A stretch of 24,170 nucleotides of DNA, from IMG/VR virus record IMGVR_UViG_3300005519_000012, positions 1-24,170 of that record, one strand, 5' to 3'. Numbering within the stretch: position 1 is the first letter of the stretch; each line of letters begins with the position of its first letter. A program made the translations under genes and the position numbers. Positions 4,460 through 15,736 of the stretch are shown one piece after another. Source of the DNA: a virus. The notes below the pieces were generated by a model that searched no databases, was not told the DNA's origin, and worked only from the letters and a program-made list of their open reading frames with translations.

Positions 4460-4696
4460 TTGAAACATCAAAACATCCAGCAGCGCGTCATCACCGTCGT
4501 CGCCGAGCAGTTCAACCGCGAGCCGGAATCCGTGACGCCGGCGTCGAACTTTGCCGAGGACCTTGACGGCGATTCACTCGACCAGGTCGAACTGATCATG
4601 CAGATCGAGGACGAGTTCGAAATCGAGATCACCGACGAAGCCGCCGACAAGATCCGCACGGTGCAGCAGGCGATCGACTACATCGCGGCGCTGTAA
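4460..4696 (+). CDS. acpP: Acyl carrier protein
   Basis: 78 residues, full length for the family, starting with TTG at 4460 behind AGGAG (4448-4452). The phosphopantetheine attachment motif DGDSLDQVEL is present with Ser39. The acidic helix II and III residues match bacterial AcpP closely in pattern (EDEFEIEITDEAADKIRTV, then QQAIDYIAAL). The apo form would be charged by the host ACP synthase; no synthase, acyltransferase or ketosynthase lies in the window. It sits in the early operon between the Cys-cluster protein and small hypothetical genes, so it would be made early in infection. It may divert acyl groups, modify a phage product or bind a host enzyme; which of these is unknown. Confidence 0.92.
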   Translation: MKHQNIQQRVITVVAEQFNREPESVTPASNFAEDLDGDSLDQVELIMQIEDEFEIEITDEAADKIRTVQQAIDYIAAL

Positions 4697-7414: not shown

Positions 7415-7427
7415 ATTTCGCTCACAG

Positions 7428-7505
7428 GCCGTTTTCGCTCGTCCAGAGAAATGTAAAACGGCTTTGCACAAAGCCCTGATCGCCCCCCCGATCGGGGCTT
7501 TTTGC
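7428..7505 (+). terminator. Hairpin followed by strong intrinsic terminator after the early operon
   Basis: AAAGCCCTGATCG (from about 7469) pairs with CGATCGGGGCTTT around a C-rich loop, with one G-T wobble, and is followed by a T run to about 7504. An upstream inverted repeat GCCGTTTT (7428-7435) / AAAACGGC (7455-7462) forms a separate hairpin. It ends the early transcript and might be the first terminator overridden by the Q-like protein. Confidence 0.85.
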
Positions 7506-7585
7506 ATTCTGGGACCAGAAGACCAGATATCAGCGGATGCCAGAGCAGCCAAACCGCGCCGGACGCTGTCACCGGCAAGAACAGG

Positions 7586-7661
7586 CGCAGGGTAGAGCAG
7601 TCGGCAGCTCGTCAGGCTCATAACCTGAAGGTCGCTGGTTCGAATCCAGCCCCTGCAACCA
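7586..7661 (+). tRNA. Initiator-type tRNA-Met (CAT anticodon)
   Basis: A full 76-base cloverleaf with encoded CCA. Acceptor 7586-7592/7651-7657, D stem GAGC/GCTC, anticodon stem TCAGG/CCTGA with loop CTCATAA (anticodon 7619-7621), T stem GCTGG/CCAGC with loop TTCGAAT. It has initiator marks: a C1 x A72 mismatch at the top of the acceptor stem, a purine-pyrimidine A11:U24 pair, and G30:C40 and G31:C39 in the anticodon stem. The third of the usual G:C pairs is A29:U41. Overall it reads as a variant of bacterial tRNA-fMet, not of elongator tRNA-Met. Confidence 0.9.
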
Positions 7662-7688
7662 TTTTTTCGATCACCACCAGGAGCATGC

Positions 7689-7958
7689 ATGTCAGGCCTT
7701 GTCCTCAACCGCCACGAGGTGGACTATGTCGACCTCACCACAATCGGCACCGTCACAATCCAGCCCGATGGTGCCGGCGGCATCAAGATCCTGGTCGACG
7801 GGTTCGAATTCGGCCACGCGGATAGTTGCCGCGAGACCGTAACGAAGGCGCTGGCATGGGCGCGGGACGTGCTGAACACCGAAGTGCAGGCGAATCGCCT
7901 GATTCCAGGCGGCCATTTGACCGCCATTGCCGGCACCGCAGAAGAAGCCGGCGAGTAA
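7689..7958 (+). CDS. Hypothetical protein between the two tRNAs
   Basis: 89 residues from the ATG at 7689, with AGGAG at 7679-7683; the ATG at 7685 is in another frame. The protein is beta-rich at first (YVDLTTIGTVTIQPDGAGG, IKILVDGFEFGH) and helical later (VTKALAWARDVLNTEV). No domain recognised. It begins 27 bases after the tRNA-Met and ends 8 bases before the tRNA-Gly, so one transcript may carry all three, with the tRNAs released by processing. Confidence 0.65.
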   Translation: MSGLVLNRHEVDYVDLTTIGTVTIQPDGAGGIKILVDGFEFGHADSCRETVTKALAWARDVLNTEVQANRLIPGGHLTAIAGTAEEAGE

Positions 7959-7966
7959 CCATCATC

Positions 7967-8040
7967 GCGTCCATAGCTCAGTGGCAGAGCAGCAGCCTTC
8001 CAAGCTGAATACCAGGGTTCGATTCCCTGTCGACGCTCCA
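7967..8040 (+). tRNA. tRNA-Gly (TCC anticodon), with stem mismatches
   Basis: 74 bases with encoded CCA. Acceptor GCGTCCA/TCGACGC, D stem GCTC/GAGC, anticodon loop CTTCCAA (TCC at 7999-8001), T stem CAGGG/CCCTG with loop TTCGATT, discriminator T as usual for bacterial tRNA-Gly. Two mismatches are visible: C x C at position 6-67 of the acceptor stem and G x A at 27-43 of the anticodon stem. It may still work, or it may be decaying. It would read GGA (and GGG) codons. Confidence 0.85.
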
Positions 8041-8384: not shown

Positions 8385-8457
8385 GTGTTTCCCCTATTTA
8401 ATCCTTTGGTGGGTGCCAAATTCTAACTGGATTGGCGCACCAGGATGGAGAGAGTTC

Positions 8458-8540
8458 ACCCGATAGCCGGTTCACTCGGGGTAAAGGCCGGCAGCCGCTG
8501 ACGTAGAAGGCCTGACTCCTTCCCCAGAATATCGGGTTTT
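8458..8540 (+). other. Candidate structured RNA or regulatory element in a 219-base gap
   Basis: The gap between the minus-strand gene and the DUF2158 gene (8385-8603) has no gene. ACCCGATA (8458-8465) pairs exactly with TATCGGGT (8530-8537), followed by TTT. Inside, AGCCGG/CCGGC-type and GGGG...GGCC / GGCC...CCCC pairings are possible as alternatives. The closed stem and T-run could be a terminator-like leader or a small RNA. No match to a known riboswitch was recognised. A further imperfect pairing GGTGCCAA/TTGGCGCACC lies to its left (about 8412-8443). Confidence 0.3.
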
Positions 8541-8569
8541 CGATGGCGCGGGCGGCGGCACTCTGAGGC

Positions 8570-14493: not shown

Positions 14494-14748
14494 ATGAGCG
14501 ATTCGACGGAAACGATCAAAATCAAACCGTCGCACGAGTCTCAAGGCGACTACGTGCTGATCAACAAGTCTGAGTTCGACGAGACGGTCCACGAACTCTT
14601 CGACTCCGACGGCGTGACCAAGAAGACATCGGACGGCATGAACGTGGACCAGATCAAGGCCGCATTGGCCGAAAAGAAGATCGCCATCCCCGACGGTGTG
14701 ACCAAGAAGACCGAGTTGGCCGCGCTACTGGATAAATTTCAGACCTGA
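14494..14748 (+). CDS. Small virion-region protein with C-terminal HeH/SAP-like segment
   Basis: 84 residues behind AGGAG. The N-terminal half is charged (ETIKIKPSHESQGDYVLINK). The C-terminal 35 residues (MNVDQIKAALAEKKIAIPDG, then VTKKTELAALLDKF) have the helix-extended-helix look of small phage HeH/SAP-like domains. The motif GVTKKT occurs twice (about residues 40-45 and 68-73). Position after the coat gene suggests a head-associated or connector accessory role. It overlaps the end of the convergent gene by 10 bases. Confidence 0.65.
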   Translation: MSDSTETIKIKPSHESQGDYVLINKSEFDETVHELFDSDGVTKKTSDGMNVDQIKAALAEKKIAIPDGVTKKTELAALLDKFQT

Positions 14749-15656
14749 GGAGCTAAAACGGACGGGTCGCGAATAACTTCATCAAGCTGGCAAAAAAGAA
14801 ATTCAGCCGCCGGGGAAAAACGTAGATCAGAAAACGCTCCGCTCGCTTTCAGCTGAGGCCAGTCCGACCAGGATTGTTGACTGAACGCGACATGGTAAAG
14901 AGTGAGGAGGCGCTCGGCATGCCCGATTCGCGAATTCATGATCCCTTTGTATGTGACTTTGGTCCGATCGGGAATTTCTTGCGCTTCCAGCCAAAGCAGG
15001 AGCTCAATGAGAGTCAGTGCGACCGGGTTGACGGAAGTCCAGTGAAAATTTGTGATGCTCTGCCAGGCCGAATGTACGTTTAAGTAGCCATGTCGAAGCA
15101 TATCCGGCGCCATTGGGTTGGCGAACGAAAATGTTGGATCTCGTGCCTCTGGATGATCATTGCCCAAATCGACCAGCAGGTAATCGCCGGTGTTGTTGTA
15201 AATGATACTGTTGAGCGCATCGGCCCCTTGACTTTTTCCGGAGCGGGCAGCTGCCACTACCTCAAGATAAAATTTTACGAGAGAAAAAAATGTCGCTTCA
15301 AACCGCGACAGATTTGCTGTTTCCTGCTGGGCGGCAAGAATTTTTCGAGTCTCCGCGAGGTCTTCTTTCGCGGTTCGTAGCTCATCTTTTTGCATTCTGA
15401 TGGTAAAGAACAACGCGATGATCGTGACGAGGCCGATCGCGGGGTTCAAGATTCCCCCGAAATAATCACCAACTTGGCCGAGCTGACTCATGCCATAGGG
15501 CGGCGCATGGAATTTTGCCACCACCAGAAAGCCAATCAATAGCATGGCGACCGCACCAACAAACAGTGTTGCACCGTATAGCAATTTTTCCTCGATAGAC
15601 AGCTGGGAGTAATAGTTGCGCGCTCGGCTTACACGGCCATTAACGTTTTTTGTCAT
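14739..15656 (-). CDS. Membrane protein resembling putative phage abortive-infection proteins (putAbiC-like)
   Basis: 305 residues from the ATG at 15656-15654, behind AGGAAG; an upstream ATG at 15716 lacks such a site. Two membrane segments (about 25-47 and 69-86) enclose QVGDYFGGILNPAIG. A charged coiled coil follows (MQKDELRTAKEDLAETRKIL), then SRFEATFFSLVKFYLEV. This order, with GDYFGG-LNP and F-E-x-T-F-F, is the N-terminal signature of the putAbiC family. The C-terminal half is not clearly recognised. It lies leftward inside the head genes, is less GC-rich than its neighbours and has its own ribosome site, so it is probably lysogeny-expressed cargo for excluding other phages. That activity is inferred from family resemblance only. 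Confidence 0.7.
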   Translation of the reverse strand: MTKNVNGRVSRARNYYSQLSIEEKLLYGATLFVGAVAMLLIGFLVVAKFHAPPYGMSQLGQVGDYFGGILNPAIGLVTIIALFFTIRMQKDELRTAKEDLAETRKILAAQQETANLSRFEATFFSLVKFYLEVVAAARSGKSQGADALNSIIYNNTGDYLLVDLGNDHPEARDPTFSFANPMAPDMLRHGYLNVHSAWQSITNFHWTSVNPVALTLIELLLWLEAQEIPDRTKVTYKGIMNSRIGHAERLLTLYHVAFSQQSWSDWPQLKASGAFSDLRFSPAAEFLFCQLDEVIRDPSVLAPQV

Positions 15657-15736
15657 TGTCGCTTCCTGTTGTTTTTCTGAGGGAACTATCTTAAACGAAC
15701 CTCGGGGCGACAGCATTTTCCGTAGAGAGAGTATTT

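Follow-up and report, generated by a model that had tools for sequence, protein, structure and literature searches.

A phage-borne initiator-type tRNA gene ahead of the terminase of a temperate myovirus

The window, by which we mean the whole 24,170-base virus fragment analysed here (IMG/VR record IMGVR_UViG_3300005519_000012), encodes a tRNA that, judged from its sequence, is a real and intact phage tRNA of the initiator type. The gene is of a kind already known from many phages. With moderate confidence we read it as a functional initiator tRNA of a temperate myovirus, which lies on a short cassette upstream of the terminase and late genes and would add fMet-tRNA for phage synthesis. The coordinates of the gene and its neighbours are given in Table 1.

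Table 1. Features at the tRNA locus of the window
Feature	Position	Strand	Basis or remark
Non-coding block directly 5' of the tRNA	7415..7578	+	94.5% identical to L253
tRNA-holding cassette	7579..7674	+	In the window; absent from sister virus L253
Initiator tRNA gene, tRNA-fMet(CAU), 76 nt	7586..7661	+	ARAGORN, Rfam RF00005, fold, profile, homologue in L300
Encoded CCA of the initiator tRNA gene	7659-7661	+	
89-aa open reading frame between both tRNA genes	7689..7958	+	
Companion tRNA-Gly(UCC) gene	7967..8040	+	ARAGORN, Rfam, relatives; common at the locus in relatives

ARAGORN calls a tRNA-Met(cat) at 7586-7661 on the plus strand, and Rfam RF00005 matches this gene over its full length (66.2 bits, E 1.3e-12). 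Minimum-free-energy folding gives a cloverleaf with anticodon CAU in which position 1 is unpaired (z = -2.2 against shuffles). The acceptor strands CGCAGGG/CCCTGCA leave C1xA72 without a Watson-Crick pair, followed by G2:C71 and C3:G70; the discriminator is A73, and the D-stem GAGC/GCTC yields A11:U24. Formylation is favoured by C1xA72 together with G2:C71, C3:G70 and A11:U24, and G:C pairs in the anticodon stem help a tRNA to pass the checks of the P site (PMC7949028). In the anticodon arm of the window tRNA (TCAGG CTCATAA CCTGA) the two pairs adjoining the loop are G30:C40 and G31:C39, and the outer pair is A29:U41 rather than G29:C41. The initial annotation had described the mismatch at 1:72, A11:U24, the CTCATAA loop and two of three G:C pairs with A29:U41 as the third, and each of these can be read directly from the sequence. 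Three results exclude a chance origin of the tRNA features: the covariance-model score, a homologue five substitutions away at the same locus of a second virus contig (L300), and the comparison with nucleotide profiles.

These profiles rest on small reference sets, 13 chromosomal initiators and 6 elongators, drawn from the bacterial genomes with related prophages and from sampled Gammaproteobacteria. The window tRNA scored 71.2 bits against the initiator profile and 25.5 bits against the elongator profile, a difference of +45.7 bits that places it with the initiators of these chromosomal sets, which hold no isoleucine-2 tRNAs. Held-out controls separated cleanly, with initiators at +61 to +71 bits and elongators at -35 to -70 bits. 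The assignment to the initiator type made in the initial annotation is thus upheld by the identity elements, by this score and by the unpaired 1:72 of L300. A tRNA for elongator methionine or for isoleucine-2, similar to an initiator in appearance only, would fit with the loss of one of the three G:C pairs and with a D-loop one base shorter than that of the host initiators. The presence of C1xA72, A11:U24, G30:C40 and G31:C39 speaks against this, as does the profile difference (from profiles without an isoleucine-2 set), and we regard such an identity as extremely improbable.

PHROGs matches in the window comprise a DNA methyltransferase, a replication protein, RusA, terminase, portal and scaffold, and further a major head protein, tail sheath, tape measure and acyl carrier protein; Pfam identifies a CII-like regulator. 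This gene set points to a temperate, contractile-tailed phage, and the window is therefore a fragment of a temperate myovirus. Prophages of Janthinobacterium, Duganella and other Burkholderiales supply its terminase relatives at 78-82% identity, and the host is therefore likely to lie within Burkholderiales, as judged from the prophages nearest to what is only a fragment, and is probably a bacterium related to Janthinobacterium. The phage encodes its acyl carrier protein at 4460-4696 (PHROG 5934, E 5e-20). A 325-aa protein with hydrophobic N-terminal segments, which matches a family without functional annotation (PHROG 8999), is encoded on the minus strand at 14739-15716, moron-like and against the direction of the head and tail genes that surround it.

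The tRNA recurs at the same place in L300, a contig of 49.9 kb, where the alignment reaches 93.8% identity over 113 bases and 71 of the 76 tRNA bases are identical. At position 1 L300 has G where the window has C, both unpaired with A72; the substitutions at 17 and 57 lie in loops, and at 50 and 62 U replaces C and leaves G:U pairs in the T-stem. A29:U41, the fold and the open 1:72 (now GxA) are all kept, and the flanking genes are ~80% identical. With the pattern used, L300 was the only further copy of the same tRNA found in IMG/VR. A second sister virus, L253, has ~14 other bases in place of the ~96-base tRNA stretch, and its flanks align with those of the window at 79% and 77%. Given this clean absence between aligning flanks, the tRNA behaves as a cassette that is gained or lost cleanly. 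A host gene at a prophage border was rejected as an explanation: the tRNA has phage genes on both sides and is found again in L300.

The open reading frame that separates the two tRNA genes has no Pfam or PHROG match; it is present in L253 at 70% identity, and in L300 it does not lie between the tRNAs. The non-coding block upstream of the tRNA is 94.5% identical to L253, compared with 74-79% for the flanking genes, and contains a terminator-like stem-loop with a T run at 7482-7498. From its sequence this block is a possible late-operon leader, and by analogy with lambda pR'-tR' it could comprise a late promoter with leader and terminator. A simple scan found no strong promoter for the tRNA. 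Just upstream of the terminase genes, 105 bases with no long open reading frame assigned (8456-8560) are 92-96% identical in L253, L003 and L300, within surroundings at 40-75%. This stretch has no Rfam match and may be a cos or pac site, or some other element acting as DNA or as RNA.

As to the origin of the gene, it was compared with the chromosomal initiators of the presumed host clade. Those of Janthinobacterium, Duganella and Bordetella resemble it in CTCATAA, A11:U24, G30:C40, G31:C39 and, in most, A73, but they are only ~86-87% identical, have G29:C41 and a longer D-loop. Janthinobacterium chromosomal initiators (L233, L248 and similar) have U1:A72 and no C1xA72 mismatch, in contrast to the phage gene. 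Among 394 genomes of Janthinobacterium's family, none had an initiator of the AGG/CCU pattern (A29:U41), and an A29:U41 initiator of the presumed host family was accordingly rejected as the source. The identity, the G29:C41 of the hosts and this absence together indicate that the gene was not copied recently from a host. Elsewhere the variant does occur. In 274 sampled Gammaproteobacteria the GGG/CCC initiator pattern was found in 245 and AGG/CCU in 4, and these 4 have an A29:U41 initiator without any GGG/CCC match, in line with the earlier suggestion that A29:U41 is close to changes seen in the initiators of other bacteria. G29:C41 is therefore usual in initiators and not required. In virus contigs, the 68 non-redundant copies away from locus ends, among the IMG/VR matches listed to the initiator pattern, had A:U at 29:41 in 29 cases, G:C in 24, U:A in 14 and C:G in 1; this set was restricted to the CTCATAA loop and one particular D-stem, comes from a scan that includes host genes at prophage ends and is not host-matched, so that the contrast between viruses and bacteria is a lead rather than a test.

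Among 101 terminase relatives the usual tRNA at the locus is Gly(TCC), and a CAU tRNA occurs in at least six of them, some loci being incomplete. Three from the same phage group as the window phage (L073, L211 and L219) are initiator-like, with CTCATAA as loop, a purine at 11 paired with a pyrimidine at 24, and U:A, CxA and A:U, respectively, at 1:72. A further three CAU tRNAs (L045:1235-1309, L081:4114-4190 and L222:4435-4512) combine an open 1:72 (CxA or AxA) with C11:G24 and the unusual loop TTCATAC. They have GGG/CCC next to the loop, and the profiles place L045 and L222 nearer the initiators and L081 in between.

Initiator-like tRNAs are not rare in phages: at least 255 phage records match the window tRNA at E below 1e-5, their initiator status having been checked for part of them only. 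They are also found in strictly lytic or unrelated phages, among them Janthinobacterium phage Donnerlittchen and T4-like phages of Vibrio and Aeromonas. Of 17 initiator-like tRNAs read from isolate phages, 8 have altered loops (TTCATAA, CCCATAA or TTCATAT). The closest parallel in layout is the block of Pseudomonas phage D3 (AF165214.2, 53398-54222: Met, Gly, Asn, Thr), a temperate phage like that of the window, in which Met is followed by two small open reading frames, Gly (codon GGA), Asn and Thr. The order Met-Gly(UCC) is shared, and the D3 Met tRNA has A11:U24, an open 1:72 (CxU), 82.9% identity to the window tRNA and a nearly identical T-arm. It differs in its loop, CCCATAA (C33), in G29:C41 and in the two further tRNAs behind, and the small open reading frames of D3 and the window gave no significant protein match. 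U33 is near-universal in tRNAs; C33 within CCCATAA was seen in Met tRNAs of two unrelated phage groups (L291:2501-2576, which is phage D3, L295:801-876 and L287:800-876). Members of the Bradleyvirinae (Janthinobacterium phage Donnerlittchen, Xanthomonas phage DoCa5 and Stenotrophomonas phage QDWS359) likewise carry a terminase-adjoining gene with initiator determinants, but there it lies downstream of the terminase and has the loop CCCATAA or TTCATAA. A tRNA-fMet has also been reported in Sinorhizobium phiLM21-like prophages, which resemble the window phage in being temperate and in having a single initiator-annotated gene in some members only (PMC12429752); they differ in phage group, which is unrelated, and in host class.

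In the mechanism that we propose for an added supply of initiator, the tRNA would be transcribed during lytic growth together with tRNA-Gly(UCC), charged by the host methionyl-tRNA synthetase and, because 1:72 is open, formylated by host Fmt. Host IF2 would take it to the ribosomal P site, and the tRNA would raise or restore the fMet-tRNA supply for the surge of late phage translation, at a time when the host's own pool may be limiting or partly destroyed. A29:U41 would be a tolerated change, because the two pairs adjoining the loop stay G:C. The identity elements, the +45.7 bits and the changes in L300, all of which lie in loops, are G:U-compatible or keep 1:72 open, argue for a functional gene, as do the exact absence in L253, the initiator-like genes in L073, L211, L219 and other phages, and the existence of A29:U41 chromosomal initiators. 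Against it stand the missing first of the three conserved G:C pairs and the lack of a strong promoter in the simple scan. Most relatives also lack this tRNA at the locus, so that it is dispensable. Of the three roles raised in the initial annotation, the sequence alone does not separate a boost to phage translation starts from replacement of a cleaved host tRNA; the third, an altered choice of start codon, finds no support, since the anticodon and loop are canonical.

The tRNA might instead serve counter-defence, by replacing a host initiator cut by a VapC-type anticodon nuclease for which its altered anticodon stem would make it a poorer substrate. VapC of Bosea has tRNA-fMet as a substrate, and related enzymes target the anticodon stem-loop (PMC8522696), and phage tRNAs have been proposed to evade such nucleases by loop changes (PMC10264068). 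Consistent with this, pair 29:41 sets the anticodon stem of the window tRNA apart from the stem found in the presumed host clade, and loops are altered in the isolate phages counted above and in the locus relatives L045, L081 and L222. However, the window loop is CTCATAA as in the hosts, with only 29:41 differing, so the usual cleavage site is intact and the case for counter-defence is weakened for this gene. Moreover, phages are reported generally to avoid encoding tRNA-fMet where VapC-LT2 threatens (van den Berg et al., PMC10264068), and no nuclease was matched to the window phage or its host. We consider this role unlikely. A broader and rather improbable version is that phage initiators have been released as a class from chromosomal constraints (at 29:41, at loop positions 32, 33 and 38, and at 11:24), keeping G30:C40, because they must evade those host nucleases that cleave the host's own initiator. 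If true, the window gene would be a class member whose nuclease escape lies in the stem.

The patchy presence among relatives and the clean absence in L253 would also suit a selfish or transient passenger, picked up by recombination and without present function; yet in L300 five substitutions have left the fold, the open 1:72 and A29:U41 intact, with flanking genes ~80% identical, and we consider a passenger quite improbable. A further alternative is tRNA-dependent lysogeny, in which integration breaks the host initiator gene and the phage copy replaces it. This mechanism exists, having been shown for some mycobacteriophages with other tRNAs (PMC10865867), and the phage is temperate, as its CII-like protein indicates. 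But L300, with the tRNA, and L253, without it, have integrases that share 93% identity, and a tRNA-Pro(TGG) gene marks the end of the L253 prophage; the tRNA thus seems not to stand in for a host gene disrupted by integration. In these sisters no attB overlapping a host gene of the same isotype was found, the window itself being a fragment without an integrase, and in two Variovorax genomes with an initiator-like tRNA in prophages the host initiator is intact on another contig. Replacement of a broken gene is thus not supported and is very improbable.

What phage tRNAs do is still a matter of debate, and codon usage in its ordinary sense cannot account for an initiator, because it serves every gene. 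The window gene shows which initiator features phages keep (the open 1:72, A11:U24 and G30:C40) and which they change (29:41). L300, with the gene, and L253, without it, share an integrase type and offer a natural comparison between initiator supply and counter-defence. The gene is ordinary in kind and useful as a test case.
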